A DNA stretch of 24,275 bases from a bacterium (GTDB taxonomy: Bacteria > Planctomycetota > UBA11346): contig JAIFKN010000121.1 of assembly GCA_020049615.1 (NCBI GenBank), forward strand, positions 1 through 24,275, read 5' to 3'. Below the pieces are notes generated by a model. It was not told the DNA's origin, searched no databases, and saw only the letters and a list, made by a program, of their open reading frames with translations. A program made the position numbers and the translations under genes. This document shows, in pieces, positions 1,206 through 22,760 of the stretch; within the stretch, counting starts at the first letter, position 1; each line of letters opens with the position of its first letter.

Positions 1206-1232
1206 GCAATTCGCGCGACCTCAGCCGCCCGG

Positions 1233-2201
1233 CTACTTCGCCGGACGCAGGGCCAAACGGAAGACGCTGCCGCGGGCGGTGACGAACAGCGAGCGGCCAT
1301 CCGCGCCGCCGAAGGCGCAGTTGGCGGCCAGCGGATCGGCCTCGCCCTTGGCGTTCACGTTCGGCATGGGGATAGTGCCGATGCGCCGGGCGTCCGGGGC
1401 GAGGACGACGATGCCCTCGCTGGAGGCGACGAAGACGCGGCCCTGGGCATCGACCTTGATCCCATCCGGTAGCCCGATGACGCCTCCGAACTGCTGCGGG
1501 TTCTCCAGCGTTCCGGCGGCGGTGACGTCGTAGCGCATGATGCGGTGCGACACGTCGCAGGCGATGTACATCCGCTTGCCATCCGGGGTCAGGGCCAGGC
1601 CGTTGGGCTTGTTCAGGCCCTGCAGCACGCGCGTGACCGTGCCGTCGGCATCGATGCGGTAGACGCCGAGGATCCCGCCCATGTTGGGGGTCCGGGTGCC
1701 AAGGAACCAGTCGGCATCGGTGAACCAGATGCGTCCGGCGGCATCGACGATGACGTCGTTGGGCGAGTTGTAGGGCACGCCCTCGTAGGTGGCGGTCAGC
1801 ACGGTGGTGGTGCCGTCGGGCGCGGTGCGCGTCACCTGGCGCGACCACATCTCGCAGGCGAGCAGGTTGCCCGCCTTGTCGAAGGCCAGGCCGTTGGCCG
1901 AGATCATGCCGCGGCCGGTCCAGCCCTTCGGGCGGTACGGCTCCGCCTTGGCGGTCCGCGCATCCCAGCGGTAGAGCTTGTCGTCGTTGAAATCGACGAA
2001 GAGCAGGTAGCCGTCCGGGTGCCACAGCGGCCCCTCGGTGAAGTTGCCCTTGCAGCCGGTGGCGATGCGTTCCGGCTGGCGCGAGGCGAAGACGTCGTCG
2101 AGGGTCTCCTCGGCCGCCACCGGGGCGAGCAGGGCGAGGAGCGCGGCGAGACGCACGGTCCAGGACGGGCGGGCGGAGCGGTTGGCCATGGCTGTTCTCA
2201 T
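1233..2201 (-). CDS. Exported SMP-30/gluconolactonase-like protein
   Basis: This 322-residue protein starts with a signal peptide (positive MANRSARPSW segment, hydrophobic LAALLALLAPVAA core). It then forms a six-bladed SMP-30/gluconolactonase/LRE-type propeller. Blade signatures are visible: TEGPLWHPDGYLLFVD with the metal-binding Glu, SPNDVIVDAAGRIWFTD, KPNGLALTPDGKRMYIACD and LPDGIKVDAQGRVFVASSEG. Family members hydrolyse sugar lactones using a divalent metal; the export signal suggests a periplasmic role. I chose ATG 2201 because a longer frame back to 2306 would place the shared operator inside the gene. ATG 2189, which has a weak GAGAA before it, is equally possible. It lies divergent to the PQQ-like gene. 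The actual substrate is not readable from sequence. Confidence 0.82.
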   Translation of the reverse strand: MRTAMANRSARPSWTVRLAALLALLAPVAAEETLDDVFASRQPERIATGCKGNFTEGPLWHPDGYLLFVDFNDDKLYRWDARTAKAEPYRPKGWTGRGMISANGLAFDKAGNLLACEMWSRQVTRTAPDGTTTVLTATYEGVPYNSPNDVIVDAAGRIWFTDADWFLGTRTPNMGGILGVYRIDADGTVTRVLQGLNKPNGLALTPDGKRMYIACDVSHRIMRYDVTAAGTLENPQQFGGVIGLPDGIKVDAQGRVFVASSEGIVVLAPDARRIGTIPMPNVNAKGEADPLAANCAFGGADGRSLFVTARGSVFRLALRPAK

Positions 2202-2247
2202 GGGCCGTACGATGCCGTCCGGCCGGCGGGTGCCACGCCGGCCGCTG

Positions 2248-2261
2248 GTCATCCGGATGAC
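2248..2261. promoter_or_regulatory. Shared operator, copy 1 (GTCAT-CCGG-ATGAC)
   Basis: This is a perfect 14-bp palindrome between the divergent SMP-30 gene (start 2201, 46 bp away) and PQQ-like gene (start 2348, 86 bp away). Both arms match five other copies in the window exactly or nearly so, while the four central bases vary. It could act on either or both genes. The rest of 2202-2347 shows no clear -35/-10 boxes. Confidence 0.75.
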
Positions 2262-2347
2262 TGCGCCTGCCCCGTCGCACTGCGGGCCGCAGGCCGTATT
2301 CTGCACACGGCTGGCAACTGCCGGCCCGTCCGTGAAAGGACCGCCCG

Positions 2348-4105
2348 ATGCCCCGCCTGCTCCCCATCCTGGCCTTCGCCCTGTGCTCCGCCCTGCCGGC
2401 CGCCGACTGGCCGCAGAACCTGGGACCGTCGCGCGACGGCCTGCTGCCGGCCACGCCGCTGCGCACCGGCTGGCACGGCGCCAAGGCCCCGCTGGCCTGG
2501 CGCGCGCCCAGCGGGCTCGGCTCGGCCCCGCCCATCGCCGTCGGCGGGAAGGTCTACACCTTCGGCGCCTTCCGTCCCGCCACCACCGCCGAGCAGCTCG
2601 ACGATCCCGAGGCCGTGCCGACCTTGCCGGAGCTGAAGAAGCAGAGCACGGTCACCGGCCAGCAGCTCGCCGAGCGGTTCGGCGACGGGGTGCGCAACTT
2701 CATCGTCCTGTGGAACGTGCCGGGCATGGCGGAGAAGGAGAAGCTGGCCCAGATGGCCGAGCCGCACTTCTACATCGCGGCCCTGTGGGCGCAGTGCTTT
2801 GATGCCGCCACCGGCAAGCGCCTGTGGGCCGCCCGGCTGAGCGACTACAGCCCGATCTGCGATGCCCAGCCCTACTGGCCGCAGGCCTCGCCGCTGTTCG
2901 TCGACGGCAAGGTGTTCTTCCACGGTCCCAGCGGCGACCTCTTCCTGGTCGACGCGGCCAGCGGGAAGACGGTCTGGGAGCGCAGCCTGGTCAAGGACGG
3001 CGTGATGGGCGAGTTCGGCAAGCAGTCCAACGCCGGCGGCGGGATGCGCTGGAAGGACACCATCATCATCAGCCTCAGCCATCCGCCGGTCTACCACCAC
3101 AAGCTGATGGCGGTGCGCATCGCCGACGGCACCACCGCCTGGACCAGCGCCTTCGAGGCGCAGACCTTCCGCGCCCAGTTCGGCCGCTTCGGCTTCGCCG
3201 AGATCGCGGGCAAGCCGACCGTGCTGCTGTCCCTCGGCGAGGGCACCGCCGGAGTCGACCCCGACGACGGCGCGGTGCGCTGGCAGAGCGGCGTGCCGAT
3301 CGCCAGCAAGGCCCTCTACGAGCAGCGCTACGCCGAGCTGGCTTCGCGCTGGGCCGGCGACGAGGCGGTGACCAAGGCGATGCGCAACAAGGTCGACTCG
3401 CTCGACGCCTGGAAGAAGTCGCTCTACGCGCCGTACCAGGCCTACGCCCCGGTGACCTGGAACGGCCATGTCATCGATGCGTTGATGAGCGGCCATGACG
3501 ACTTCGTCTCGCAGATGTGGTGCGAGCGGATCGTGGACGGCAAGCCGACCCTGGCCTGGCAGACCCTCGACACGGTGCCGGAATGCCATTCCGACAAGTC
3601 GAACATGCTGGCCAAGGACGGCCGGCTGTACGTCTTCGACCAGAACTCCTACGCACCGCGCGGCCTGCTGCCGGCCGGCGACGGCGGCCGCCTGCCCGAG
3701 GCCCGCCCGTTCCGGGCCAAGGGCATCGGCCAGTTCCAGTGCTTCGACATCGCCAGCGGCAAGCGCCTGTGGCACAGCGACGCCTTCCGCACCCATACCG
3801 CCACCGACCACGACGACACCGACCACTACAAGATGATCCTGGTCGGCGACCAGCTCATCGTCACCGGCAACGACGGACTGTGGATCGCCCGCCTCGGCGA
3901 CAGCGGCGTCGAGATCCTCGCCAGCGCCAGCCTCGGCAACGCGCACCAGCTGTGGCTCGACAACGTGCTCGCCGAGCCGGTGCTGGCCGACCAGCGTCTG
4001 TTCATCCGCCAGTCGGAGGGCAGGGCGAAGAATGGCCTGAACGCCATGTTCCCCGGCACCGGCAACCTCTACTGCTTCGATCTGCGCCCGGCCGCCGGGA
4101 AGTGA
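2348..4105 (+). CDS. Exported PQQ-like beta-propeller protein
   Basis: This 585-residue protein has a signal peptide (MPRLLPILAFALCSALPAA) followed by WPQNLGPSRDG, an opening common in secreted planctomycete and verrucomicrobial PQQ-like (BamB-fold) proteins. Repeating blade motifs of the A-x-(S/T)-G-K-x-x-W type occur at GKRLWAARL, SGKTVWERSL, DGTTAWTSAF, DGAVRWQSGV and SGKRLWHSDA. The fold may bind PQQ in a dehydrogenase or act as a scaffold; no cytochrome domain is present, so enzymatic function is unproven. The start is supported by AAAGGA 8 nt upstream. It is the only plus-strand gene in the first 15.6 kb. It faces the second SMP-30 gene with only 12 bp between the stop codons and no visible terminator. 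Confidence 0.8.
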   Translation: MPRLLPILAFALCSALPAADWPQNLGPSRDGLLPATPLRTGWHGAKAPLAWRAPSGLGSAPPIAVGGKVYTFGAFRPATTAEQLDDPEAVPTLPELKKQSTVTGQQLAERFGDGVRNFIVLWNVPGMAEKEKLAQMAEPHFYIAALWAQCFDAATGKRLWAARLSDYSPICDAQPYWPQASPLFVDGKVFFHGPSGDLFLVDAASGKTVWERSLVKDGVMGEFGKQSNAGGGMRWKDTIIISLSHPPVYHHKLMAVRIADGTTAWTSAFEAQTFRAQFGRFGFAEIAGKPTVLLSLGEGTAGVDPDDGAVRWQSGVPIASKALYEQRYAELASRWAGDEAVTKAMRNKVDSLDAWKKSLYAPYQAYAPVTWNGHVIDALMSGHDDFVSQMWCERIVDGKPTLAWQTLDTVPECHSDKSNMLAKDGRLYVFDQNSYAPRGLLPAGDGGRLPEARPFRAKGIGQFQCFDIASGKRLWHSDAFRTHTATDHDDTDHYKMILVGDQLIVTGNDGLWIARLGDSGVEILASASLGNAHQLWLDNVLAEPVLADQRLFIRQSEGRAKNGLNAMFPGTGNLYCFDLRPAAGK

Positions 4106-4117
4106 GCTGACGGCGGT

Positions 4118-4999
4118 TCAGCCCGCGCAGAGCGTCCGCGGCCGGGCCAGCGGACGGTCCAGGGCGACGCACAGGATGCGCCCCGACCACTCCGGCCGCC
4201 GACTGGCCGGCATCGGTGCGTGGTCGCGCGCGGTGGTGATGAGCAGGCAGTCGCCGGCCTCGCCGCCCAGCTCCACCGCCGTCGGCAGGCTGACCGGCAG
4301 GTCGAGCCGCTGAAGGATACTACCGCTGTGCGCATCGAGGCGCAGCACGCAGGCGCCGCCGAACACCGCCACCCACAGGCCGCCCTCGCGGTCGACGACC
4401 AGGCCGTCCGGCATGCCCTCGGCCAGGGTGGACAGCACGCTGCGGCCGTTCACCGCGCCAGATGCGGAATCCCAGGCGAAGCCGTCGATGCGGCGCAGGG
4501 TGGAGTCCGCGAACAGCATGCGCCCCTGCCACCAATCCAGGCCGTTGGCGATGCTGACGCGATCGACCACCGTGCTGATCGCGCCCCCGGCCTCCAGGCG
4601 GTGGAGCGCGCCGCCCTCCCAGGCGTAGTCGCAGCGCAGGGTGCCGAACCACAGGCGACCGGCCGGATCGACCGCGCCGTCGTTGATCCGGCTCACGGAG
4701 GGATCGCCGGGGGCGGTGGCGAACGGGCGCCACGAACCGTCGGATGTGTCCAGCCGGCCCAGGCGCAGCCCGCCGGCGACGATCAGGATGCGCGGATCGG
4801 CGGTGCAGGCGAGGCAGCCGACCGGGGCCGGCACCGGCCAGGCCAGCAGCGTGCCATCCGCTTCGCGGGCGTGCACCAGGCCGGCGGGGATGTCGACCCA
4901 GTACCAGCGCCGCGTGCGCCCGTCCCAGCGCGGATGCTCGAACAGGGCGCCGCTGGTGTCAGGCCATGGGACGGGATCTCCGCCGTGGACCGTGGTCAC
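4118..4999 (-). CDS. SMP-30/gluconolactonase family protein, GTG start
   Basis: This 293-residue cytosolic-looking protein has no signal peptide and shows the canonical SMP-30 blade pattern. The Glu near residue 21 in FEHPRWD is the expected first metal ligand. DGAVDPAGRLWFGTL, SIANGLDWWQGRMLFADS (Asn ligand) and GMPDGLVVDREGGLWVAVFG (Asp ligand) follow in order. Such enzymes open aldonolactones in oxidative sugar pathways. The GTG start overlaps the TGA of the upstream glycoside hydrolase as GTGA, and a GAGG sits 10 nt before it. The two genes are therefore translationally coupled, which favours a joint role: the exported hydrolase releases a sugar and the lactonase acts after its oxidation. 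The specific sugar is unknown. Confidence 0.85.
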   Translation of the reverse strand: MTTVHGGDPVPWPDTSGALFEHPRWDGRTRRWYWVDIPAGLVHAREADGTLLAWPVPAPVGCLACTADPRILIVAGGLRLGRLDTSDGSWRPFATAPGDPSVSRINDGAVDPAGRLWFGTLRCDYAWEGGALHRLEAGGAISTVVDRVSIANGLDWWQGRMLFADSTLRRIDGFAWDSASGAVNGRSVLSTLAEGMPDGLVVDREGGLWVAVFGGACVLRLDAHSGSILQRLDLPVSLPTAVELGGEAGDCLLITTARDHAPMPASRRPEWSGRILCVALDRPLARPRTLCAG

Positions 5000-7764
5000 T
5001 CGAAGACGACCTCGTAGTACAGCGCGGCATCGCGTCCGGTGTCGAGGGCGATGGCCCCGGCCGTGACCGGCAGGGTGCGGCCGCTGCGCCGGCCGTCGTG
5101 GTCGAGGATGTGCACCGCGGCGACGCGCCGCGCCAGGGTGACCACCGCCTGCACCGGTTCGAGCAGCAGCGGGGCGGTGCCGTTGGCCAGCACCGTGTCG
5201 TCGGGGCGGAAGAGGCGGAAGCCGGTGTTGCTCTGCCGCGCGACGACGCTGATGATCGCGCCCTTGGCGGCGGCCAGGTCGGCATCGCGTTCCAGGCTGG
5301 AGATGAGCAGCGAGGCGTAGGGCGAGGCGATGCGGATGCCGATGCCACCGAGGCGCTGCTCGGTGCCGCCGGGATGGCCGATCACGCCCTTGGTGCCGGC
5401 GGTGTCGATGGTGACCAGGCCGCCGCCGGCGGTGCTCCAGGCCAGCTGACCGGTGGTCGAGCGGTAGACCCCCGCCTGCCGCATCGATGACAGGTCGGGG
5501 ACCACCGGCGCCGCGCCCCGCTCGGCGAACTCGACCAGGACGCGGCCGACCGCCAGGGCCTCGACCGGGGTGGTGCCGCCGAAGCTCTTGGTGTCGCCGC
5601 TGCTCTCCAGCGTCTCGCTGAAGGGGAACTCGCCGCTGCGCAGGTTGTCCTCGCCGACGATGCGCCGGGCCACCACCGCACCGGGCTGCACGTCGCCGCG
5701 CAGCACCATGCGCGCAACCGTGGGATGCTGCCCGAACATGGTCGGAGTCTCGGTGCAGAAGCGGTCCCAGCGGTTGCGGCCGCCGGTCACCGGGATGAGG
5801 CCGGCGACCTTGTGCTCGGACTGGAACTGGTACGAGCCGTCCCAGCCCTGCAGACCCATGCCGTACGCGGCGACCACCGGCACCATGCCGGCCTCGTTGA
5901 GGCTGGGAAACAGCTGCGTCCACTCCGAGAGCACGAATGGCCGGTCGGCGACCTGCTGCATGCCGCCGGCGCCGAACACGCCGCTGCCCGGCCGCGCCAG
6001 CATGTCGAAGCGCACGCCGGTGTTGTAGTCGTGGCGGTCGATGAAGCCGACGCGGTGGTCGGAGCGCAGGTTGAGGAAGTGCGGCAGCATGGCCGGCGCC
6101 TGCCACGGCGAGCCGAGCAGCGGCCCCTCGTAGCCGGTGCCGCGGATGGCCTTGGCGAAGCGGGCGTAGAAGGCGTCCTGCTCGGCGTGCAGGAAGGCGG
6201 CGCCGTCGAGCAGGCGCTGGCGCGTGCCGCCGGTGGTCTTGGGCAGGTTGTCGTTGCCGAGGAACCACGGATTGAGCTGCACCGCGACCGCCACGGCGAG
6301 GTCGTCGTCGGCCTTCGCCGCCGTGCCCCAGGCCGCCTTCCACGCCGCCGCGTCGGCATAGCGGGTGCGCAGCCAGGCGGCGAAGCGCTCGCGCAGCTTG
6401 CGGCCGTAGGTCGGGCATTTCGCCGCCGCCGCCTCGACCGGGAACCACAGGATGTCGTCCTCGTTCTGCAACTCGACGAAGTTCAGCGCCGGATCCTTGG
6501 CGTAGGCCAGCCCGGTCTCCGGGTTGACGTGCTGCAGCAGCTTGACCACCATCTCGATCATCACGTCCTGCACGTCCGGGGCGATGTTGATCAGGGCGTA
6601 GGAGCTGCCGCCGAAGGCCTTGGCGATCTCGTCGTAGGCCCACAGGCGCGGCGCGTCCTCAGGGCGCAGCTTCAGCTTGAATGAGTGCGACCAGCCGAAG
6701 TAGATGCCGCGCTGCTTGAGTGCAGCGGTGAAGTGGTCGAGGCGGGCCAGCTTGGCGGCGTCGAAGCGCAGCGCGCTCTCGGGGCTGCCGATGCCCTCCC
6801 AGTCGTCGTTGGTGAACTTGTGCATGCGCACGGCGTTGATGCCGTAGCGCGCCAGGCGGGCGGCGGTGGCGTCGGCCTCCTCCGGCTTGGGGGCGTTGAG
6901 GCCATAGGAGATGTTGGTGCCCCAGAAGACGATCGGCTTGCCGTCGGCGGTGATGAAGCGGTCACCCTGCATGCGGATGCCGCCGCGGGCGCCGGCGGGA
7001 CGCTCCAGCCAGCCCTCCAGGCCGATGACCGACGGCCCGTCGCCGCCCTTGGCCGCCAGCGGGAACCACGACGCACCCGCCGGCGTCTCGATGTAGCGCT
7101 GCAGGTCGGCCTCGCTGGCGTGCACCACGGCCGGGCCGGGGAAGGCCAGGGTGGCGGCGAGCGCGGTGGTGCCGGCGGGCACGGCGTCCCGGACGATGAG
7201 CAGGCGCAGCACGCCGAACTCCGGTTCGACCGTCACCGGCGTGGCGAAGCGCAGGGTGATCTCGCCGGCGGCGCTATGCAGGATCAGGGCCGCGATGCCG
7301 GGGATGGCGCTGGTGCGCTTGACCGGCAGGGCGAGTTCGCGCCGCTGGCCATCGGCGCCGACCAGGGTGATGCGGCCGTCGAGCAGGTCCTTGCCGGGCG
7401 TGATCGCCAGGCAGGCGAGGGTGGCCGGCACGGTGGCCTCGGCGCCCAGGGCGACGCGCAGGGCGATCGTGCCATCGGCGTTGCCGGCCGCGGTCACCTG
7501 GCTGGTGGCAGTGCCGGCGCCCAGCTTCAGGGTGCAGCGCGCGTCGAGCCCCTGGCCCTCGACCGCCTTGTGGGCGATCTCGGTCCAGCCCCAGTTCGGA
7601 CCCCAGGCCGTCAGCGCGAGGCTGTACAGGCAGCGGTCCTGCGCGAGCAGGAAGAGCTTGCCGGCATCGACCGGCGAACGGGTCAGCCGCCAGGCCGGCG
7701 CATCGGCGGCGACCAGCAGTGCGGCGGTGAGCAGACAGAGGGTGATGCGATTGACTGACGGCAT
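4996..7764 (-). CDS. Exported clan GH-A glycoside hydrolase (GH5-like)
   Basis: This 922-residue protein has a signal peptide (MPSVNRITLCLLTAALLVAADA). About 240 residues of probable beta-sandwich follow, then a TIM barrel opening near residue 267 with FITADGKPIVFWGTNISYG. Glu435 in ELQNEDD fits the clan GH-A acid/base (Asn-Glu pair), and Glu614 in VLSEWTQ fits the nucleophile. The 179-residue separation is plausible for the clan. A C-terminal region of about 240 residues again looks all-beta. I cannot assign a CAZy family or substrate. The start at 7764 was preferred over 7827 because it gives a clean signal peptide, has GAGG 9 nt upstream, and leaves the operator at 7823-7836 outside the gene. 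It is the first gene of a pair with the SMP-30 gene. Confidence 0.8.
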   Translation of the reverse strand: MPSVNRITLCLLTAALLVAADAPAWRLTRSPVDAGKLFLLAQDRCLYSLALTAWGPNWGWTEIAHKAVEGQGLDARCTLKLGAGTATSQVTAAGNADGTIALRVALGAEATVPATLACLAITPGKDLLDGRITLVGADGQRRELALPVKRTSAIPGIAALILHSAAGEITLRFATPVTVEPEFGVLRLLIVRDAVPAGTTALAATLAFPGPAVVHASEADLQRYIETPAGASWFPLAAKGGDGPSVIGLEGWLERPAGARGGIRMQGDRFITADGKPIVFWGTNISYGLNAPKPEEADATAARLARYGINAVRMHKFTNDDWEGIGSPESALRFDAAKLARLDHFTAALKQRGIYFGWSHSFKLKLRPEDAPRLWAYDEIAKAFGGSSYALINIAPDVQDVMIEMVVKLLQHVNPETGLAYAKDPALNFVELQNEDDILWFPVEAAAAKCPTYGRKLRERFAAWLRTRYADAAAWKAAWGTAAKADDDLAVAVAVQLNPWFLGNDNLPKTTGGTRQRLLDGAAFLHAEQDAFYARFAKAIRGTGYEGPLLGSPWQAPAMLPHFLNLRSDHRVGFIDRHDYNTGVRFDMLARPGSGVFGAGGMQQVADRPFVLSEWTQLFPSLNEAGMVPVVAAYGMGLQGWDGSYQFQSEHKVAGLIPVTGGRNRWDRFCTETPTMFGQHPTVARMVLRGDVQPGAVVARRIVGEDNLRSGEFPFSETLESSGDTKSFGGTTPVEALAVGRVLVEFAERGAAPVVPDLSSMRQAGVYRSTTGQLAWSTAGGGLVTIDTAGTKGVIGHPGGTEQRLGGIGIRIASPYASLLISSLERDADLAAAKGAIISVVARQSNTGFRLFRPDDTVLANGTAPLLLEPVQAVVTLARRVAAVHILDHDGRRSGRTLPVTAGAIALDTGRDAALYYEVVFE

Positions 7765-7822
7765 GATGACGGACCTCGTGCCAGGAGCGGCCTGTGGATG
7801 TCGACGTGACCAGCGACCGGCA

Positions 7823-7836
7823 GTCATGCCGATGAC
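7823..7836 (-). promoter_or_regulatory. Shared operator, copy 2 (GTCAT-GCCG-ATGAC)
   Basis: This copy has exact inverted 5-bp arms. It lies 59 bp upstream of the glycoside hydrolase start and just after the stop of the upstream pseudopilin gene (7843), in the 78-bp gap between them. It is identical in all 14 positions to the copy at 12195-12208. Confidence 0.78.
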
Positions 7837-7842
7837 CAGGCC

Positions 7843-8574
7843 TCAGGGATTGGAGAAGATGATCAGCCCGCTGGCGCTGTCGGCGGTCGGATTGCCGCTG
7901 TACTGCACATGGCCGTCGAAGAACAGGATGTTGCAGCCCTTCTTGTGCCAGGGCACCCAGTTGTAGACGCCTGGGGCGGCGGCGGCGACGGCGGCGGCCA
8001 CCGTCGTCGGCAGGCATTCCGCCGGATTGCCCCAGCCGGCGAAGTAGCGGGCCTTGTCGGCCTCCATCATCAGGACCATCTGCGACTGCCGTTTGACCTG
8101 CGACAGGCCGAGCCTCGCCTCGGGGCTGGCCCAGGTGGCGGCACCGGTGATGCCGGGGGTGGCCTGGGTGTTCATGCCGTAGGACGGCTCGTCGCGGGTG
8201 GCGCGGTCGCGCGGATCGCTGGCGCACAGCAGGGTCTTCTCGCGACCGATGTTGTGGGTGTCGAAGGGATCGGCGGCCTCGCTGATCGCCGGCAGGTACT
8301 GGCCGAGGAAGGGGCCGCCCCACCACGACACCGGAAAGGCGAAGTTCCACTCCGCCGGGGTCATGCTGCCGGGCAGGTAGTGCATCGGCAGGGCGCCGTC
8401 GTGATCGGTGGCATAGAGGTGGACCATCACCCCGAGCTGCTTGAGGTTGTTGCCGCAGGACATCTTGCGCGCCGACTCGCGCACCAGGGTGATGGCGGGC
8501 AGGAGCATGCCGGCGAGCACGGCGATGATCGAGATGACGACCAGCAGCTCGATCAGGGTAAAGGCCTTCCTCAT
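7843..8574 (-). CDS. Type II secretion-like pseudopilin with H-x9-DG motif
   Basis: This 243-residue protein begins [21 protein letters not shown], a class III prepilin signal with cleavage expected before Phe5 and the conserved Glu at mature position 5. Ala instead of the usual Gly precedes the cleavage site. The C-terminal segment [19 protein letters not shown] contains the H-x9-DG motif that defines a large PVC-group pseudopilin family. The function of these proteins is poorly known. No other type II secretion genes are near. The ATG overlaps the TGA of the 130-residue gene upstream (ATGA), with GGAAG before it. I chose this start because any earlier one would bury the prepilin signal. It is presumably expressed from the operator-bearing promoter at 9009. 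Confidence 0.88.
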
Positions 8575-8963
8575 GGCTGATTCTTCCGCTTGTAGGTGTC
8601 GAGCATGGCCTCGGCCTCCGGGCTGCGGTAGCGGTGGCACTGCTTGGCCGGCGGCTGGCGTTTCAGCGTCGGATGCACGGGAGGCGCTGCCGCGCCAGAC
8701 GCCATCGGGAACAGCCACGGCCGCCGCTGGGTGTCGGCGAAGGCGGGATCATCGCACTGCCAGGCCGGCAGCAGCCCGTCGGGCGGAGTCGGCGGCGCAT
8801 CGATCGGACCGGCCACATAGGTGATCAGCTCGGGGTCGTAGCCGGCCTCGGCGAGAAAGGCGTGCGGGTACGCCGACAGGCCGTCGTCGGCCGGACGCAG
8901 CAGCAGCACGACCGCCAGGGTGGCGGCCAGGCAGATGCCAAGGAGGATGATCGCTCTGCGCAT
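8571..8963 (-). CDS. Small membrane-anchored protein of unknown function
   Basis: This 130-residue protein has an N-terminal hydrophobic stretch ([19 protein letters not shown], residues 4-22) that can be a signal anchor or signal peptide. A polar, Pro-rich body follows ([21 protein letters not shown]). I recognise no domain. Its stop overlaps the start of the H-x9-DG pseudopilin as ATGA, so the two are coupled and probably work together at the envelope. The operator copy at 9009-9022 lies 46 bp upstream of its ATG. The Shine-Dalgarno is weak (GGA about 12 nt upstream). Two Cys in the body (CDD and QCHR) could form a disulfide. Confidence 0.7.
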
Positions 8964-9008
8964 GGTGATGTTCTATCCAACCATAGCGGCGGTGGACCGC
9001 CGGTCCAA

Positions 9009-9022
9009 GTCATACTGATGAC
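9009..9022 (-). promoter_or_regulatory. Shared operator, copy 3 (GTCAT-ACTG-ATGAC)
   Basis: Both 5-bp arms are perfect and the centre differs from the other copies. It overlaps the stop codon of the symporter gene (9010-9012) and precedes the 130-residue gene by 46 bp. Downstream in the gene direction, TTGGAC and TATGGT are separated by 17 bp, a weak sigma-70-like promoter candidate. That would place the operator just upstream of the -35 box. Confidence 0.75.
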
Positions 9023-11064
9023 GACGGTCCGGGCCGCTCGGCCGGGCCGGCCTCGGCGGCGACCATGCCATTGTCGCGCTCGTCCGGCTTGGTCGTCGAC
9101 AGGTCGCGCAGGAGCCGCCGCATGTCGCGGACCGCTCCCCAGGTGAACCAGGGCAGCGTCACCAGGCAGACCGCCAACGGCAGGATGACCGCCCAGAAGA
9201 AGTGCCAGTTCCACCAGCTGTTGGCTGACCAGCGCTCGACGCAGGCGTTCCAGCCGATGGCGCACACCGCTCCGACCGGCGACAGCAGGCCGAAGAAGAA
9301 CACGCCATAGGCGATGATCCGGTCATTGCGCGTGAAGTGCGGGCTGTTGATCCCGGCCAGGATGGCGAGGGACCAGCGTCTGCCCGGCCCAGCTGGCCGC
9401 GCCTCCTGGTCGCGATGCAGCATGCGCTCGAGGTCGAAGCGGCTCCGGCGGCTGGTCAGCAGCGACACGACCACGAACAGGGTCAGCGACAGGAGCATGA
9501 TCGAAGCCGACAGGATCTGGCCGTTCACCGGAATGCGCTGCGGATGGCTGACGAACAGATCGTGCAGCGCACCCGGTGCGAACGACCGCGCCCCCCACTC
9601 CGCCAGGCGCGGCCAGGCCTGCTGCACGCCCGCCGCGCCAAGGGAAAGGATGGAGCCGACCAGCAGGGCCGTCCATGCGCCAGCCCTGGTCGCACGCCGC
9701 CAATACAGGCCACCCCACACCACGACGCCCATGCCGGCGAGATAGATGCCCGAGAGCAGCGCCGTCACCATGGTCAGGAAGTCGGCGATGCGGAACACGC
9801 AGGAGAACCAGACCGCGAAGATGGCCAGGGCGAACGCGGCCAGGCGCAGCACCCGGATGTGCGTCCGGGCTTCAAGCCGCCCGCCCCGCATGGGCAGGAC
9901 CACGTCCTGGATGAAGCCGGTGCTGAAGTTGAACAGCCCGCTCGACAGCCCGGCGATGGTGCCCATCAGCATGATGGCGCAGAGCGCCCCCTTGACCCCC
10001 ATCGGCAGCAGCGCCCCCAGGGCGGTCGGCAGGGCCAGCTGCGTGCGCAGCTGGCTGTCGCTGTCCGGGATGGTCGCCGCAAGATGGGCCTGCACCGTCG
10101 CAGCCTGGCCGGCGAACTCCGGGTTGTGCAGCAGCACGAAGGCCCCGATGCCCACCACCGAGCCCATGGCCACACTGCCCAGGCCGCGCCAGATGCCGAG
10201 GATGGTCGCCATCTGGCCTTCATGGGCCGACCGGGCGGAGGCGGCGAAGGCAGCGTTCCAGGTGTTGCCGCGCCAGAAGTAGACCGTCATCGCCCAGCCG
10301 ATCAGGACGTAGATGTAGCCGAAGTCCTGCTGCTTGGCGACATCGAAGGGGTCGACAAACGAGGCCCCGGCCTGGCCCGAGGTGAAGGCCACCGCCATCT
10401 GGTCGTAGCTGAAGATGGCGAGCACGGCGAAGGCGACGACGAGGTAGAGCAGGCTGGAGATGAGACCCTCCAGGCAGTCGACCACCATCACCGAGAGATG
10501 GCCGCCGGACATGGCGAAGAACAACGCCAGCGACATCAGCACGACCATGACCGGGAGGAAGGTCGGCAGGACCAGGCCGAGCACTTCGCATTCCGCGGGC
10601 AGGCCGAGAAAGTGGACGAAGAACCTGGCGGCAACCCCGGGAGCGAGCCCGAAGGTGAACAGGCCGCTGAACACATTGAGGATGGTGGCGTAGACGCGCA
10701 CCCCGCGGCTGTAGCGCATCTCGAGGAACTGGTGGAAGGTCAGGGCCCTGGTCTCGCGGAAGCGGTAGGTGACGAGACCGCTCAGCGCGAGCAGGAAAAA
10801 GCTGAAGCCGACGAAGGACGACCACAGGTTGAGCGAGAACCCCGTCCGGCTGAACACCTCCATCGACGCCACCAGGGCCATGGCGGTAACCCCCATCTCC
10901 ATCTGCGCGGTGCAGATCAGGTACCTGCCGGCGCTGCGGCTGGCGGCGAGGAAGTCCGCGACGCTGCGGTTGAAGCGGCGCATGTACAGGGCGGCGCCGG
11001 TGGCCAGCAGCAGCGGCACCACCACCACGATGATGTCCAGGGACGAATAGTCGGCGAGCGCCAT
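9010..11064 (-). CDS. Sodium:solute symporter (SSS family)
   Basis: This 684-residue polytopic protein has the SSS (SLC5-like) layout. The N-terminal DIIVVVVPLLLATGAALYMRR helix is followed by about a dozen further helices. Family-like features include FHQFLEMRYSRGVRVYATILNVFSG, GGHLSVMVVDCLEGLISS, and GTIAGLSSGLFNFSTGFIQDVV, near the helix that usually contributes sodium-site Ser/Thr residues. It is longer than typical (about 500-550) because of a C-terminal extension with at least two extra helices and a polar tail. It imports a small solute with Na+; sugar or sugar acid is likely from context. The upstream dehydrogenase stop lies 9 bp before its ATG, and the TGAGGA that includes this stop supplies the ribosome-binding site. 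Confidence 0.88.
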   Translation of the reverse strand: MALADYSSLDIIVVVVPLLLATGAALYMRRFNRSVADFLAASRSAGRYLICTAQMEMGVTAMALVASMEVFSRTGFSLNLWSSFVGFSFFLLALSGLVTYRFRETRALTFHQFLEMRYSRGVRVYATILNVFSGLFTFGLAPGVAARFFVHFLGLPAECEVLGLVLPTFLPVMVVLMSLALFFAMSGGHLSVMVVDCLEGLISSLLYLVVAFAVLAIFSYDQMAVAFTSGQAGASFVDPFDVAKQQDFGYIYVLIGWAMTVYFWRGNTWNAAFAASARSAHEGQMATILGIWRGLGSVAMGSVVGIGAFVLLHNPEFAGQAATVQAHLAATIPDSDSQLRTQLALPTALGALLPMGVKGALCAIMLMGTIAGLSSGLFNFSTGFIQDVVLPMRGGRLEARTHIRVLRLAAFALAIFAVWFSCVFRIADFLTMVTALLSGIYLAGMGVVVWGGLYWRRATRAGAWTALLVGSILSLGAAGVQQAWPRLAEWGARSFAPGALHDLFVSHPQRIPVNGQILSASIMLLSLTLFVVVSLLTSRRSRFDLERMLHRDQEARPAGPGRRWSLAILAGINSPHFTRNDRIIAYGVFFFGLLSPVGAVCAIGWNACVERWSANSWWNWHFFWAVILPLAVCLVTLPWFTWGAVRDMRRLLRDLSTTKPDERDNGMVAAEAGPAERPGPSSSV

Positions 11065-11073
11065 GGGGAATCC

Positions 11074-12135
11074 TCAGGGGACGATGATCGGCTTGACCGG
11101 GGCCTGCGGACCGCGACAGGCGGCGAAGGCCGTCCCGATATCGCTCAGCGGCCGGACCCACTCGTCCCTGACCAGCCCCTCGATCGAGGCGCGGCCGGTG
11201 ACCAGCAGGCCGGCGGCGAGGTGCCATTCGGCGCTGGTGTAGGCGTAGACGGTCTTCAGCACGACATGCCGGACGCACCACTCGAGCGGATTGATCGTCG
11301 TCGGCGTCCAGCGCACGGCGACCAGGACCACCGTGCCGCCATGGCGCACCGCGTCGCAGGCGGTGTCGAGGGTCTGCGCCGAGCCCGCGCACTCGACGAT
11401 CAGGTCCGGCCCGCCGCCGGTGGCCTCCAGCAGCTGCTCGACCGTGTCGCCCGCCGCCGGATCGATCAGGTCGGTCGCACCATGCTGGCGCGCCAGTTCG
11501 CGGCGCGTGGCGATGGGATCGACCACGAGGATGCGCGCCACGCCGGCGGCGCGCAGGCACTGCACGGTGAACAGGCCGATCGGCCCGGCGCCGAGGACGG
11601 CGGCGGTCGAGCCCAGCGCCGGAGCGCCGGCCTGCACGGCATGCACGGCCACCGCGAGCGGCTCGCAGCAGGCGACCTGGTGGTCGCTGAGCACCTGGGG
11701 CGGTTTGCCGGGTACCCACCACTTCATCAGCTTGAGGCTGGCGAATCCGCCCTGCTCGGTGGTGCCCGGCATGCCCACCCGCGCCTGCCAGCGCGGCGTG
11801 TAGCGCGCCCCGCTGCGCCCGCCGCGGCTGCCGGCGGGGGGATGCAGCGGCATGCCGCAACCGCCCGGCGGGGCCGGGACGCCGCCGCCCGGCATGATCC
11901 GCTCGCCGACTTTCCAGCGGCCGGCCGCCTCGCTGCCCACCGCCGCCACCACCCCGGTGTATTCATGGCCGAGGACCACGCCGGGATCGGCCTCGCCGTG
12001 GAAGACGCGGTGCAGATCGCTGCCGCAGATGCCGCAGGCGGTGATGCGGACGAGGATATCATCCGGACCTGGGACCGGATCCGGGGCGTCGACGACCTCG
12101 AGCGAACCGGGCGAACGATAGACGGCGCAGCGCAT
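11074..12135 (-). CDS. Zinc-type (MDR) alcohol/polyol dehydrogenase
   Basis: This 353-residue medium-chain dehydrogenase has catalytic zinc ligands readable as Cys37 (GICGSD), His57-Glu58 (GHEYTGVV) and Glu158 (CCEPLAVAVH). The Rossmann motif is GAGPIG (182-187). An acidic residue ending the second strand (LVVDP) suggests NAD rather than NADP. The usual four-cysteine structural-zinc lobe is absent: the equivalent stretch (residues about 83-125) has a single Cys93 and is rich in Gly, Pro and Arg. It likely oxidises a sugar, polyol or sugar acid imported by the coupled symporter, and lactonases downstream would fit. The start has GGAGG 8 nt upstream. It is first in a two-gene operon behind operator copy 4. 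Confidence 0.86.
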   Translation of the reverse strand: MRCAVYRSPGSLEVVDAPDPVPGPDDILVRITACGICGSDLHRVFHGEADPGVVLGHEYTGVVAAVGSEAAGRWKVGERIMPGGGVPAPPGGCGMPLHPPAGSRGGRSGARYTPRWQARVGMPGTTEQGGFASLKLMKWWVPGKPPQVLSDHQVACCEPLAVAVHAVQAGAPALGSTAAVLGAGPIGLFTVQCLRAAGVARILVVDPIATRRELARQHGATDLIDPAAGDTVEQLLEATGGGPDLIVECAGSAQTLDTACDAVRHGGTVVLVAVRWTPTTINPLEWCVRHVVLKTVYAYTSAEWHLAAGLLVTGRASIEGLVRDEWVRPLSDIGTAFAACRGPQAPVKPIIVP

Positions 12136-12194
12136 GGGTGTGGCCTCCGTTCGCGATCATGGGCGCCGGCCCGTCCGCGAGTCGGCGCATCCGA

Positions 12195-12208
12195 GTCATG
12201 CCGATGAC
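12195..12208 (-). promoter_or_regulatory. Shared operator, copy 4 (GTCAT-GCCG-ATGAC)
   Basis: This copy is identical to copy 2. It lies 60 bp upstream of the dehydrogenase start and 14 bp beyond the stop of the second pseudopilin gene. No other repeated element is seen in the 86-bp gap. Confidence 0.78.
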
Positions 12209-12221
12209 CGCCGGCGGGCGA

Positions 12222-12992
12222 TCAGTAGGGATTCGCGACGACCGAACCGCTCGCCAGGTCGCCGGTCAGATCGCCCGAACCACCGACCCGGCCATCGACG
12301 AACAGCAGGTTGGTCGAGCCGCGGTGGGCCACGCGCCACGACCAGAACCACGGCGCCACCCCCCACGAAGGCACGTCGCCGGGGCGGCAAGGCGACATCG
12401 CCCGGAACGATCCGCCCAGGGCCAGGGCCGGATCCCCGGCGGACTCGCCGACCAGCGGCACCTGGCTCGTCCGCGACACCGCCTGCAGGCGTCGACGTTC
12501 CGTCCACTGGCCAGGAGCGAGGATGCGGGCGTAGAAGAAGTCGTTGAGCCCGTAGCTCAGGTTGGGATCGAAGGGGACGTGCTGGCGGTATTCCGGGCAG
12601 GTCCACAGGCCGCCGATCTGGCGCCCGCTGGTGCCGGGGCCCCAGCTGATGCCGCCGTAGACGTGGTAGCCGCCCTGCATGATGACGTCGGTGACATAGC
12701 CGTCGCACCAATAGACGTGCTCGCCCCAGGCGTAGCGTCCCGGATCCGCCGCCGTCCACGCATCGGGGATGCCGGCGGCCGGCGAGACCTCACCGGGCGG
12801 CAGGATGCCGCGATGCTCCTGCGTGTAGGCGAGCAGGGCGACGCCGATCTGGCGCAGCTGCGACCTGCAGACCGTGCTGCGCACCGCGCTGCGCACCTGC
12901 CCGATGGCCGGCAGGAGCAGGCTGGCGAGCACGGCGACGATGGCGATGGCGACCAGGACTTCGACGAGGCTGAAGGCGCGGTGGTGCTGCAT
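12222..12992 (-). CDS. Second pseudopilin with H-x9-DG motif
   Basis: This 256-residue protein begins [23 protein letters not shown], a class III prepilin signal with Glu at mature position 5 and, again, Ala before the cleavage site. The C-terminal [14 protein letters not shown] gives an exact H-x9-DG. It is only distantly similar to the first pseudopilin outside the N-terminal helix and the C-terminal motif, so this is not a recent duplication. It contains aromatic- and Gly-rich segments such as [21 protein letters not shown] lies 7 nt before the ATG. It appears monocistronic and has its own operator copy at 13040. No prepilin peptidase or assembly ATPase gene is in the window. Confidence 0.87.
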
Positions 12993-13039
12993 ATGGCGAT
13001 CCTAGCGCACGACGCCGGTTCCGACGAGGTTCCGTCGGG

Positions 13040-13053
13040 GTCATGCCGATGCC
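13040..13053 (-). promoter_or_regulatory. Shared operator, copy 5 (one arm mismatch)
   Basis: GTCAT-GCCG-ATGCC matches copies 2 and 4 at 13 of 14 positions. It is 48 bp upstream of the second pseudopilin start and directly after the stop of the upstream lipoprotein gene (13062). Confidence 0.68.
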
Positions 13054-13061
13054 TGGCCGGC

Positions 13062-13406
13062 TCAGGGCGCCAGGTCGACGACCACCGTCGCCACCGCCGC
13101 GTCACCGCGGATCGGGAAGTCCTGGTGCCAGGGTCCGCCGTCGGGATCCCGCGGCAGGTCGGCGCCGTCGAGGACGAAGGCGACGCGCAGTGATGCGGGC
13201 GCGGGGTCCTGGTCGGAGCGGCCGCGCACGGTCATCGCCGTGCCGTCGAGGCCCTCGCCGATGATCGCCAGGCCGGTGATGACCAGGCCATGCGCCGGTG
13301 GCGGCGGCGGTGGCGGGGCGGGCGGCTGGGACGCTCCGGAGCCGGCGGCGGCGCCGCAACCGGCAAGCAGGACAACGGTGACGCACAGGACGATGCGGGG
13401 ATGCAT
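13062..13406 (-). CDS. Small lipoprotein of unknown function
   Basis: This 114-residue protein has a lipoprotein signal (MHPRIVLCVTVVLLAGC, lipidated Cys17). A Gly/Ala linker and a run of eight prolines follow, then a domain of about 75 residues with alternating hydrophobic positions (LVITGLAIIGEGLDGTAMTV ... VVVDLAP), probably a beta-sandwich. No family is recognised. The start lies 8 bp after the stop of the 729-residue exported protein, so the pair is probably one operon. The Shine-Dalgarno is weak (GTGAG). The proline run would let the domain stand off the membrane. Confidence 0.72.
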   Translation of the reverse strand: MHPRIVLCVTVVLLAGCGAAAGSGASQPPAPPPPPPPAHGLVITGLAIIGEGLDGTAMTVRGRSDQDPAPASLRVAFVLDGADLPRDPDGGPWHQDFPIRGDAAVATVVVDLAP

Positions 13407-13414
13407 GGGGTGGC

Positions 13415-15604
13415 TCACTGCGGCTGCGGCCGGGACACGGCGATGGAGCGGACGACGGGATGGCCAAGGGCGTCGCGCGCCTGCAACTCGACGGCGGTGG
13501 CGCCGGCCGGCACCGGCACGCGCGCGGTCCAGGTGCCGTCGACGGCAGGGCGCACCGGGGTGTCGCCGACCGACAGGCTGATCGTGCCGGGCGGCATGGT
13601 GCCGGACAGTTCGACCGCGAAGGCCGGGGCCGGCGCCAGCGCGGCGAGGGTGAAGTCCTCGCTGCGATCGGCGTCGAGCACGACCTGGCGGCTGGTGCCG
13701 ACGAAGCCGCTGGCGCTCACCTGCACCGTCCAGGTGCCGGGCACGCCGTCGATGCGATAGCTGCCATCGGCCAGCGACAGCACGCTGCGCACGCCGTCGC
13801 CGATGCGCGCACCTGCGATCGGCGCGCCGTTGGCCCGCTGGATGCGGCCGGCGATGGTGCGCCCCGTCGGGGCGGCACCCCACCACTGCGGGATGCGGTC
13901 GGGCTGCAGACTGGCGCCCAGGGCCTCGAACTGGGCCTTGGCCAGGTAGCCGATGCGCGGCTGGAAGTCGGCCAGGCGCCCGCGCTGGTGGTTCTCGCCG
14001 ACGATGCGGCGGTCGAAGGAGGCGCTCGCCCAGCTGGTGTCCCAGCCGAGGAAGTGCTCGTGCGGGGTCAGGGCGAAGCTCCAGTCCGGGGCCACGCTCA
14101 GCCAGCGCAGGGTCACCGCCTGGGTGGCGACGCAGCCGCTGGCATCGCCCCAGTCGACCCAGGTCACGCCGTTGGCGGCGGTGGCGTTCGCCGGCCGGTC
14201 GGCGGCCCGGCTGTAGACGATGATGTAGCGGTTCTGGGCATCGACCGTGATCTCGTCGTCCATGCGCGAGGCCAGCGCGGCGCCGGCGAAGCCGTCCTCC
14301 TGCGGATAGGCCGGGTCGTAGCTGGTGATCGACCAGTAGCGGGCCTGGGCGCGCGGCATCGGGCTCTCGCCGGACCGGGTACGCGGCGTCGTCGGCATGC
14401 GCCCGGTGACCACCGCGACCTGGCCGTTGGCGATGGCGATGCCGCGGGTGAAGTAACTGATGTGGCTGCAGGTGGTGGCGCTCTGCTCGAGGTTGTTGGG
14501 TGCCGCCGCCGCTTCACCGCGCTTGGTCACGTGCTGGTCGACGCCGCGCGCCCATTCCGGGCCGAAGCCGAGACTCGAGCCGACCCCGACCAGGATGGAG
14601 CGCATGATGCCGAACTTCTTGTCCCAGCCCCAGTGCGCACCCTCGCCGTCGATGGCCCGCGGCACGCCGACGCCCAGCCAGTCGGGTGTCGCCGGCGTCC
14701 AGGTCGGGATCATCGGCATGGTGCGGTTGACGCGGTTGATCCAGTCCCGGCCGCAGCCGATCCAGTAGCGCCGGCCATCGGGCAGGCGCCAGTGCAGGCG
14801 CGGCTTGGCCACGCCGCCGAGCGGACCAGCGGCGGCATCCGGCGCGTAGTAGCGCACCCACAGCTGGCCCTGGTCGAAGGGACCGCGCTTGTGGCCACCG
14901 TCCTCGGTGCCCCACGGCCCCTGGTAGTTCAAGGCCGAGCCGAAGCGGCGGTTGCCCGGGGCGCGGTAGAACGGCGGCTGGAAGGCCGGTTCGATGGCGG
15001 CGGGATTGCCGACCACCATCGGCATCTCGACATGGAACGAACGGTTGGCGGCATTGCGGTCGGCGCCGGGCCGGAACGGGTTGACGTGTCCAGGCAGCGG
15101 ATCGATGTCGACGTCGGCGAGCGGCACCTCGGGAGCGCCAGCCCAGCCGGCGTAGCGGATGACGTCGGGATCGAACGGCGGGGTGACCTGGATGCTGAAG
15201 TAGCGGCAATGCGGGAATTCGCCGTCGATCACCAGGGTCGAGCCGAACGGCGCGTACACCGCGCCCGGCATCAGGTAGGTGACATGCGGATCGGGGAAGT
15301 AGGCGCGGGTGGCGGCGAGATCGATCGGCCGGGCCGGGCGCACACCCCACTCCACCTCGGGATCGACGTCCTCGGGCCGCATCAGGCGGAAGCCGTTGTA
15401 ATCGGCGGTGTTCAGCCCAGGCGGCAGCACACTGGCCGGCAGGGTGGCCGGCACCTTGCCATCCAGCCAATCGATGATGTAGGCCTCGAGCCGCTGTGAC
15501 AGCTCGACCGCGGCGGCGGTGCAGGCGGCGCGGTCGGCGAACGGCGGATAATCGCTGCCGCACAGGCAGGTGGCGAGGAGGACGAGCAGCAGGTTGCGGT
15601 GCAT
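13415..15604 (-). CDS. Large exported protein with C-terminal carboxypeptidase-regulatory-like domain
   Basis: This 729-residue protein has a signal peptide (MHRNLLLVLLATCLCGS). The body of about 570 residues contains RYFSIQV (near 133) and ARYWSITSYD (near 422). These resemble the strand motif of DUF1214/DUF1254-type proteins, but the match is too short for assignment. Residues 582-655 (TIAGRIQRANGAPIAGARI ... DGSYRIDGVPGTWTVQVSA) fit a CarboxypepD_reg-like beta-sandwich. Residues 660-725 look like a further Ig-like domain. AAGGAT sits 5 nt before the ATG. It is led by a putative ECF promoter (15623-15654) with operator copy 6 beyond it, so it appears to answer to both control systems. It may be a cell-surface or periplasmic enzyme; the activity is unknown. 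Confidence 0.78.
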   Translation of the reverse strand: MHRNLLLVLLATCLCGSDYPPFADRAACTAAAVELSQRLEAYIIDWLDGKVPATLPASVLPPGLNTADYNGFRLMRPEDVDPEVEWGVRPARPIDLAATRAYFPDPHVTYLMPGAVYAPFGSTLVIDGEFPHCRYFSIQVTPPFDPDVIRYAGWAGAPEVPLADVDIDPLPGHVNPFRPGADRNAANRSFHVEMPMVVGNPAAIEPAFQPPFYRAPGNRRFGSALNYQGPWGTEDGGHKRGPFDQGQLWVRYYAPDAAAGPLGGVAKPRLHWRLPDGRRYWIGCGRDWINRVNRTMPMIPTWTPATPDWLGVGVPRAIDGEGAHWGWDKKFGIMRSILVGVGSSLGFGPEWARGVDQHVTKRGEAAAAPNNLEQSATTCSHISYFTRGIAIANGQVAVVTGRMPTTPRTRSGESPMPRAQARYWSITSYDPAYPQEDGFAGAALASRMDDEITVDAQNRYIIVYSRAADRPANATAANGVTWVDWGDASGCVATQAVTLRWLSVAPDWSFALTPHEHFLGWDTSWASASFDRRIVGENHQRGRLADFQPRIGYLAKAQFEALGASLQPDRIPQWWGAAPTGRTIAGRIQRANGAPIAGARIGDGVRSVLSLADGSYRIDGVPGTWTVQVSASGFVGTSRQVVLDADRSEDFTLAALAPAPAFAVELSGTMPPGTISLSVGDTPVRPAVDGTWTARVPVPAGATAVELQARDALGHPVVRSIAVSRPQPQ

Positions 15605-15622
15605 GGCGGATCCTTGGCGGGT

Positions 15623-15654
15623 CCTGGTACCCGGGATTGGACGCGCGGGTTACA
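15623..15654 (-). promoter_or_regulatory. Putative ECF sigma promoter for the 729-residue protein
   Basis: Read on the minus strand, TGTAAC (15654-15649) is followed by exactly 18 bp and then GTACCAGG (15630-15623), 18 bp before the ATG. The same layout and spacing occur at 17371-17402 and 19239-19270. The AAC in the upstream box is typical of ECF -35 elements. Confidence 0.68.
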
Positions 15655-15687
15655 ACCAGGTCCGCGCAGCGCGAAGGCCGGCTCTCG

Positions 15688-15701
15688 ATCATACGCATGA
15701 C
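15688..15701. promoter_or_regulatory. Shared operator, copy 6 (ATCAT-ACGC-ATGAC)
   Basis: This copy has one deviation in the outermost arm position. It lies 84 bp upstream of the 729-residue gene and 91 bp upstream of the divergent lipoprotein gene, and 33 bp beyond the ECF -35 box. The start distances therefore differ from the other copies, so it may act at a different promoter or in an activating position. Confidence 0.62.
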
Positions 15702-15715
15702 AGGTCAGCGACCTG
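15701..15715. repeat. Short inverted repeat abutting the operator
   Basis: CAGGTC-AGC-GACCTG is a perfect 6-bp inverted repeat with a 3-bp spacer. It starts on the last base of operator copy 6. It could be a second regulator-binding site in this divergent promoter region. It is found only here. Confidence 0.45.
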
Positions 15716-15719
15716 TGCC

Positions 15720-15784
15720 CCGGTTGCCCACCCCGGTAACATCGCGCCGGTTGCCACCCCCACCGACCACCCCGGCAACCGGAG
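15720..15784 (+). promoter_or_regulatory. Alternative hairpins overlapping the lipoprotein ribosome-binding site
   Basis: CCGGTTGCC occurs twice (15720-15728 and 15747-15755). Its exact reverse complement GGCAACCGG occurs once (15774-15782), overlapping the GGAG ribosome-binding site at 15781-15784. In a transcript, either left arm could pair with the right arm and hide the ribosome-binding site. This would be an untranslated leader hairpin just before the ATG at 15792. No known riboswitch class is recognised. Confidence 0.45.
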
Positions 15785-15791
15785 CCGCGAC

Positions 15792-16454
15792 ATGACCATC
15801 CGCACCTGCGCCCTCGGACTGCTCCTGACCATCGGGACCGCGACCGCAATGCTGGGTTGCAGCCGAGGATCCCGCCCGGCGGATGACGCTGCGGCACCAC
15901 CGGCGCCAGCTGCCCCCAGCGCGGCGACACCCGGGGATGCCGTGACGGCACCATCGGCGCCAGCTGCCGCCAGTACGGCGACACCCGGCTGGAACCATGC
16001 GGATGGCGCTGCCGTGGCGGCAGAACTGGCTCAGAAGATCCTCTCGGATCCCTGGCTGGACCAATTCATCCGCACCAAGCAGCGAAATCCGAAGCTGATG
16101 GTGTCACGCATCATGGTCAGGGCTGAACGGGATGTGATCAACACCGTCACCATCGGCGAGATCCTGGAGCGGCAGCTCCTCGCCTGCGGAAGGATCGATA
16201 TCATCGCTGGCCGTTCTCACGAGACGGTCCGGGCCTCATCGAATGATGCGGCAGGATCGCAGGCGGAGATGGATGCCCTGCTGACTGGAAGCATCACCCA
16301 GATGCCGACCGCTCCCGACCGCCCCCTGCCGCCTACGTACACGGCGACGATCAAGGGCCTGGACTGCGTGACCAGGCAGATGCTGTTCAGCGTCGAGGTC
16401 CAGCACACCACGGGGGGTACGCCGGCCAAGCCAGCCGATGCGATGAAGCGCTAG
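15792..16454 (+). CDS. LpoB-like lipoprotein (PBP-activator family fold)
   Basis: This 220-residue protein has a lipoprotein signal (MTIRTCALGLLLTIGTATAMLGC, Cys23) and a Pro/Ala/Thr-rich linker containing two 18-residue repeats. A folded domain runs from about residue 75. The order DPWLDQF, then KLMVSRIMVRAERDVINTVTIGEILERQLLACGRIDII, resembles the LpoB/PEX23 domain (strand, N-(R/T)-x-x-x-x-(I/T)-x-x-x-x-x-x-L pattern, helix, then a G-(R/K)-(V/I) turn). In Enterobacteria LpoB activates a penicillin-binding protein from the outer membrane; elsewhere the fold is common and its roles vary. The start is set by GGAG 7 nt upstream. Expression may be affected by the hairpins before it. Moderate certainty for the family. 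Confidence 0.65.
   Translation: MTIRTCALGLLLTIGTATAMLGCSRGSRPADDAAAPPAPAAPSAATPGDAVTAPSAPAAASTATPGWNHADGAAVAAELAQKILSDPWLDQFIRTKQRNPKLMVSRIMVRAERDVINTVTIGEILERQLLACGRIDIIAGRSHETVRASSNDAAGSQAEMDALLTGSITQMPTAPDRPLPPTYTATIKGLDCVTRQMLFSVEVQHTTGGTPAKPADAMKR
15881..15988 (+). repeat. Two 54-bp tandem repeats in the lipoprotein linker
   Basis: Units 15881-15934 and 15935-15988 match at most positions with a constant 54-bp offset. They encode 18-residue Pro/Ala/Thr-rich linker units ending in ATPG. A third, truncated start (GGATGGCGCTGCCG) follows near 16001. The array lengthens the tether between the lipid anchor and the folded domain. Confidence 0.7.
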
Positions 16455-16523
16455 CGCGATGTGATGGCCGGGAAGCATATCAGCCTGTGGCGCCCTTCGC
16501 ACCGATCTGCGGTCCGGCTGACG

Positions 16524-22364: not shown

Positions 22365-22366
22365 GG

Positions 22367-22594: not shown

Positions 22595-22678
22595 GGGTTC
22601 CCTTCGTCCGGCCCCGGCATGGGGCGCGTGAGAAGGGCAAACCTCGGCAGGGAAGCGGCAGGGGCGAAAACGCCGATG

Positions 22679-22699: not shown

Positions 22700-22760
22700 A
22701 CAAAGCGATGGAGAAACGAGTGTGATCAGCGCCGCAGAGTGAAACCGGATAGACCCGGAA

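Follow-up and report, generated by a model that had tools for sequence, protein, structure and literature searches.

A 14-bp inverted repeat, GTCAT-N4-ATGAC, recurs six times in the 24,275-base stretch of planctomycetal DNA analysed here (the entire contig JAIFKN010000121.1; 70.6% GC), referred to below as the window, to whose bases all window statistics refer. The palindrome, its excess, its position ahead of all six inferred transcription units and the unrelatedness of its flanks are directly observed. As judged from the sequence, the six copies are likely operators for one homodimeric DNA-binding regulator, which would co-control a single, locally scattered catabolic cluster, and six units for sugar breakdown and pilin-like proteins are probably governed together by this one control protein. 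Such an operator set is of an already familiar type, not a new kind of system, and the term 'regulon', used in the initial annotation, holds only in the sense of a locally co-controlled cluster.

A recurrent palindrome ahead of six inferred units

Four copies are exact (2248..2261, 7823..7836, 9009..9022 and 12195..12208) and two carry one mismatch (13040..13053 and 15688..15701), in agreement with the positions and mismatch counts first reported. Only 0.0038 exact copies are expected from base composition, and when up to two mismatches are allowed the window holds 16 matches, against a shuffled mean of 6.33 (100 shuffles, largest 14). Among palindromes with 5-bp arms, gaps of 0–12 and at least three occurrences, GTCAT-N4-ATGAC has the highest ratio of observed to expected occurrences, 1063 versus 32 for the runner-up. 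At this GC content any short motif can cluster accidentally, but chance clustering is a virtually negligible explanation here: in a look-elsewhere control the motif reached a -log10 Poisson value of 7.76, whereas no palindrome in 60 dinucleotide shuffles exceeded 5.71, and 23 class-mate genomes (~93.8 Mb) contain 134 exact matches, a real-genome background that gives ~0.035 expected per 24,275 bases, at which the Poisson probability of at least four copies is ~6e-8. With ~0.004–0.035 expected against four exact copies, the assertion that far less than one chance occurrence should be found is confirmed.

With a matrix built from the six sites, the copies score, in order of position, 22.95, 21.21, 21.18, 21.21, 17.22 and 20.25 bits (range 17.2–22.95), and the next-best position in the window, which is intragenic, scores 12.28 bits; as the matrix was trained on the same six copies, the score gap alone is informative. 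The palindrome had been described as having conserved arms and a free centre. The arms are indeed conserved, but the centre is not wholly free, in that the eighth base, read towards the gene, is G in all six copies; the central pair is CG in two of the six. Beyond the palindrome, flank identity among the copies is 0.30 and 0.34 against 0.29 expected, which is the random level, and similarity does not extend into a longer dispersed repeat. These features bear on the view that the copies are not operators but either a short dispersed repeat or some other sequence preference of intergenic gaps unconnected with regulation. Repeats of this kind exist, for instance in genome G076, where several of the copies examined lie within stretches rich in GTCATTCG-like repeats. 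Against this view, the flanks in the window are unrelated, the centres differ, each gap holds one copy, each copy stands ahead of a unit in one functional cluster, and nothing else in the window exceeds 12.3 bits; the view is considered improbable.

Gene positions were obtained with a small codon-usage gene caller and checked by eye on the window, and transcription units were delimited by internal gaps of at most 9 bp or overlaps. Each of the six units so obtained is headed by one copy. The site at 2248 lies 58 bp (45 bp with another ATG) before an SMP-30 gene, the unit of which also includes, with less certainty, ORF 36-1205 (started at 713 by the gene caller); the site at 7823 lies 58 bp before a glycoside-hydrolase-like gene, joined by a lactonase gene; and the site at 9009 lies 45 bp before the gene of a 130-aa protein, joined by a pseudopilin gene. 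The remaining sites, at 12195, 13040 and 15688, are found 59 bp before a dehydrogenase gene (with a symporter gene in its unit), 47 bp before a second pseudopilin gene, and 83 bp before the gene of a 729-aa protein (with that of a small protein), respectively. The placement before minus-strand starts that had been proposed thus stands, with the distances of 46–84 bp corrected to 45–83 bp.

All six copies had been placed between genes, but only five are wholly intergenic. Of the 14 bases of the 9009 copy, 13 fall inside the symporter ORF (9010-11064) at its 3' end; the copy covers the last codons and the stop codon and does double duty as the end of the symporter gene and the site before the 130-aa gene. 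The sites at 2248 and 15688 lie in divergent gaps and also face plus-strand genes, namely a PQQ-like gene at 86 bp and an LpoB-like gene at ~90 bp, the start of the latter being the analyst's choice. The PQQ-like gene had been counted among the units tied together by the sites; a copy precedes each inferred unit, but this gene is divergent. Hence, the copies occur before units rather than inside genes, with one of six lying over last codons, and this placement, together with the excess and the unrelated flanks, supports the proposed operator set of dimer type.

Genes of the putative cluster and their surroundings

The cluster under control would comprise the six units with 12 minus-strand genes, counting ORF 36-1205 and the small genes, and possibly the divergent PQQ-like gene. 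Family and structure-relative matches indicate coherent gene functions, which favours the operator reading. The SMP-30/gluconolactonase-like protein (1233..2189, minus strand; PF08450, 2.7e-44) has solved gluconolactonase relatives and a hydrophobic N-terminal segment, and the divergent gene (2348..4105, plus strand) encodes a PQQ/BamB-like beta-propeller protein (PF13360, 8.9e-17). All other genes of the cluster described here are on the minus strand. A second SMP-30 lactonase (4118..4999; PF08450, 2.9e-54) is regucalcin-like (3g4e, E 4.1e-30) and shares its unit with the gene at 4996..7764, which encodes the glycoside-hydrolase-like protein of 922 aa. The latter has no Pfam family and no PDB sequence match, and its putative assignment comes from fold matches of a low-confidence structure model (mean pLDDT 59.7), for which Foldseek returned GH36, GH5 and GH2 enzymes at low TM-scores.

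The pseudopilin unit opens with the membrane-anchored 130-aa protein (8571..8963), which has no Pfam family, followed by a DUF1559 pseudopilin with the H-X9-DG motif (7843..8574; PF07596 1.1e-13, PF07963, TIGR04294). The symporter (9010..11064) is of the sodium:solute symporter (SSS) type (PF00474 7.3e-06; TIGR00813 4.2e-17, below the family cut-off), and the dehydrogenase (11074..12135; PF00107 3.8e-26) is a zinc-dependent enzyme of the sorbitol/threonine dehydrogenase type with 4ej6 and 1pl6 among its structure relatives. The second DUF1559 pseudopilin is encoded at 12222..12992 (PF07963 2.6e-07, PF07596 1.7e-07). In the last unit, a small protein without Pfam family (13062..13406) accompanies the secreted 729-aa protein (13415..15604), which carries a C-terminal CarboxypepD_reg domain and belongs to a widespread uncharacterised family of secreted proteins whose C-terminal domains differ between members; the modelled fold of the 729-aa protein appears to resemble 6ans and VPA0735 of Vibrio. 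From their families, the genes of the cluster together would provide for the release, import, oxidation and delactonisation of a sugar.

Beyond the cluster, the plus strand at 18338-19232 encodes an extracytoplasmic function (ECF) sigma factor (PF04542, PF08281) and, after it, a 118-aa ORF, which may be guessed to be the anti-sigma factor. The minus-strand stretch at 19929-23690 contains genes for a DUF3987/BT4734-like primase-helicase and an excisionase-like HTH_17 protein, together with one ORF that matches nothing in Pfam, NCBIfam or PHROGs; an integrated element may end here. A comparison of the DUF3987 protein with viral contigs found no relative. Rfam and tRNA scans gave no matches, and a plasmid origin was considered without a match being found.

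Promoter-like elements and related genomes

In five of the six sites, a -10-like hexamer is present on the minus strand 34–36 bp downstream of the operator end: CATCGT at 2209..2214 (offset 34, weak), TAGAAC at 8970..8975 (offset 34), CATGAT at 12156..12161 (offset 34), TAGGAT at 12999..13004 (offset 36) and TGTAAC at 15649..15654 (offset 34, weak, and outscored by TCCAAT at offset 47). At the 9009 site there is also a better-scoring TATGGT (8980-8985, offset 24) with TTGGAC 17 bp upstream. The joint -10 optimum on the gene side falls at offsets 34–35 and was matched by 1, 24 and 11 of 1000 dinucleotide shuffles at a jitter of 1, 0 and 2, respectively, whereas the opposite side of the operators is without such a signal (359, 60 and 63 of 1000 shuffles at a jitter of 1, 0 and 2); the optimum stays in place whichever single site is omitted. 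Measured from these hexamers, the centre of the site is at about -53 in five of six cases, and at about -42 when the alternative at 9009 is used.

The hexamers are suggestive of an activator bound just upstream of a weak -35 element. Each unit would be started from a weak promoter with its -10 element about 34–36 bp downstream of the site, and the dimer would sit just upstream of the -35 region, with its centre near -53, to act as activator. In the pathway thus activated, the glycoside-hydrolase-like protein would release a sugar, the SSS symporter would import it, the zinc dehydrogenase would oxidise it and the two SMP-30 lactonases would open the resulting lactone, with the two DUF1559 pseudopilins switched along with the sugar pathway genes.

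Several observations weigh against an operator set of this kind. The hexamers were first spotted by eye, and the shuffle test came later; the best single hexamer lies at offset 34–36 in only two of the six sites (2248 and 13040), the 7823 site has none at these offsets, and the 9009 site has a better one at 24. A consensus promoter scan of positions 1-16500 returned 0 promoters. Among the ORFs of the contig, several of which are without a family, no fitting type of regulator was recognised. In related genomes, the motif occurs mostly inside genes: of the 108 exact matches examined across 11 genomes, a codon-usage gene caller placed 101 within genes. Eight class genomes (G001, G002, G003, G004, G007, G008, G009 and G012) contributed 56 of these matches, 50 of them intragenic, and three high-count genomes (G210, G145 and G078) the other 52, of which 51 were intragenic. 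This tally of gene positions covers eight of the 23 class genomes, the other 15 having been counted for matches only, and three of the four high-count genomes that were re-listed, G098 with 11 matches standing outside it; as the coding fraction of the gene caller is as low as 0.72 (G004), some extragenic matches may lie in missed genes. Among the class-mates, moreover, the pattern outnumbers its reversed control by 134 to 20. This imbalance shows that the coding background is higher than the simple control indicates, and it is presumably due to codon usage, because the matches examined are almost all coding. Finally, five stretches upstream of orthologous genes (L001, L173, L190 and L191) contained no convincing copy.

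The motif in relatives therefore looks like coding background. At least one exact match is present in 380 of 392 genomes of the phylum, which amounts to a background of about one match per Mb. Three of the seven extragenic matches are no more than 150 bp away from a start; the genes concerned are not sugar genes and code for a 133-aa protein of unknown nature, a CHAD protein and, in the third case, a flagellar rod/hook protein. The last of these matches (L183:1501, genome G007) is a lone GTCATGGATATGAC 38 bp before the gene and calls to mind the yGTCA-N6-TGACr repeat of the FlrA-like type. The 19 exact matches in the 2.0-Mb genome G076 (e.g. L091, L094 and L096-L098) were rejected as a case of operators, as they represent a dispersed repeat; GTCATTCGAATGAC is the sequence of most of the listed copies, and among the 10 out of 19 that were examined, several lie within runs of the repeats mentioned above.

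The initial annotation proposed that the sites be judged by whether related genomes conserve them; at class level, among relatives that are distant, such conservation is absent. The symporter shares 69, 63 and 60% identity with its nearest known relatives, and the nearest genome by this protein is the planctomycetotal metagenome-assembled genome SKYG3 (L001/G001), at 60%, in which the motif has two exact matches, both within ORFs; the best match of the 729-aa protein among the 392 genomes, in a member of the same class as SKYG3, reaches 45%. The DNA most likely stems from a lineage of Planctomycetota remote from the genomes compared, and at such distances the missing class-level conservation does not refute a genus-private set of sites.

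Pseudopilin and symporter genes are also found together elsewhere. In G009, two paralogous units (L190:1918-4594 and L191:822-3489) have a pseudopilin gene directly adjoining an SSS symporter gene, and these units adjoin apparent glycoside hydrolase genes, as judged from N-termini. Of 80 symporter loci, 16 have a relative of the window pseudopilins on the same stretch, a proportion given without a control.

Candidate regulators and implications

The DNA-binding proteins recognised on the contig are the excisionase-like HTH_17 protein and the ECF sigma factor, neither of which is of a fitting type. This agrees with the original placement of the regulator outside the window, several ORFs without family notwithstanding, and the gene for the regulator is probably located outside the contig. 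With the operators left the same, it has to be considered that the regulator is a classical local repressor of the GntR, TetR, LacI, ROK or a similar family, encoded just off the contig and released by a sugar or lactone. This is a serious possibility that falls short of likely. Sugar-catabolic targets and the presence of one palindrome in each unit, not far from the start, would suit such a repressor, and neighbouring sugar clusters in class-mates appear, from N-termini, to carry a LacI-like gene (G012) and an AraC-like gene (G009), whereas the fixed offset to the -10-like element suits an activator better.

Within these families LacI is disfavoured. According to PMC4052901, LacI-family sites are even palindromes of 16–22 nt, mostly with a central CG, a description that the six copies do not match. 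The cluster shares with the regulons described there a short palindrome 30–140 bp before starts, sugar-use genes and one site per operon, but differs from them in its conserved core of 14 bp, in the lack of a central CG in four of the six copies and in having no recognised regulator within the contig.

A CRP/FNR-family protein of changed specificity is rather doubtful as the regulator. The CRP core is GTGAT-N4-ATCAC, from which GTCAT-N4-ATGAC differs by a swap of the third base, and the shared 5-4-5 geometry fits a CRP/FNR-type dimer, though it is not proof of one. Productive CRP positions are near -41.5 or -61.5, so that a centre near -53 would be unusual; furthermore, the targets are sugar genes rather than genes of CO metabolism or respiration, and no gene of this family was recognised on the contig. 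The motif is also close to the half-site of the CooA type, for which the consensus TGTCGGCnnGCCGACA is given in PMC545781. Common to both are two short arms around a centre of 4–6 bp, with GTC...GAC in the arms, but CooA has TGTCGGC/GCCGACA arms and CO targets, while here the arms are GTCAT/ATGAC, the targets sugar genes and the probable centre near -53.

It is very improbable that the copies are sites for a sigma54 enhancer-binding protein of the FlrA/FleQ type. The same inverted repeat, GTCA-N6-TGAC, has been proposed as the site of Desulfovibrio DVU2894 and likened to that of FlrA (PMC4641369), and pseudopilins would be suitable targets. Unlike in that system, however, the sites here are proximal, only 45–83 bp ahead of the start, belong to a sugar cluster and lack a sigma54 promoter signal exceeding that of random segments, with best scores of 10–11 at the six sites versus a null mean of 10.5 and a 95th percentile of 12.05.

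To our knowledge, hardly any operator motifs are known in Planctomycetota, and a literature search confined to titles and abstracts recognised no planctomycetal operator motif. R. baltica alone has 74 DUF1559-type genes without known function, according to PMC2754498. It is tentatively suggested, as a less than likely case, that a regulator of undescribed specificity places DUF1559/H-X9-DG pseudopilins in a substrate-specific programme of sugar capture. If so, these large and functionless families of planctomycetal pseudopilins would gain a role in carbohydrate uptake, assignable member by member through their operators. The palindrome would serve as bait for catching the regulator, and, as a motif linking two DUF1559 pseudopilins with a sugar-oxidation cluster, it makes the function of DUF1559 testable.

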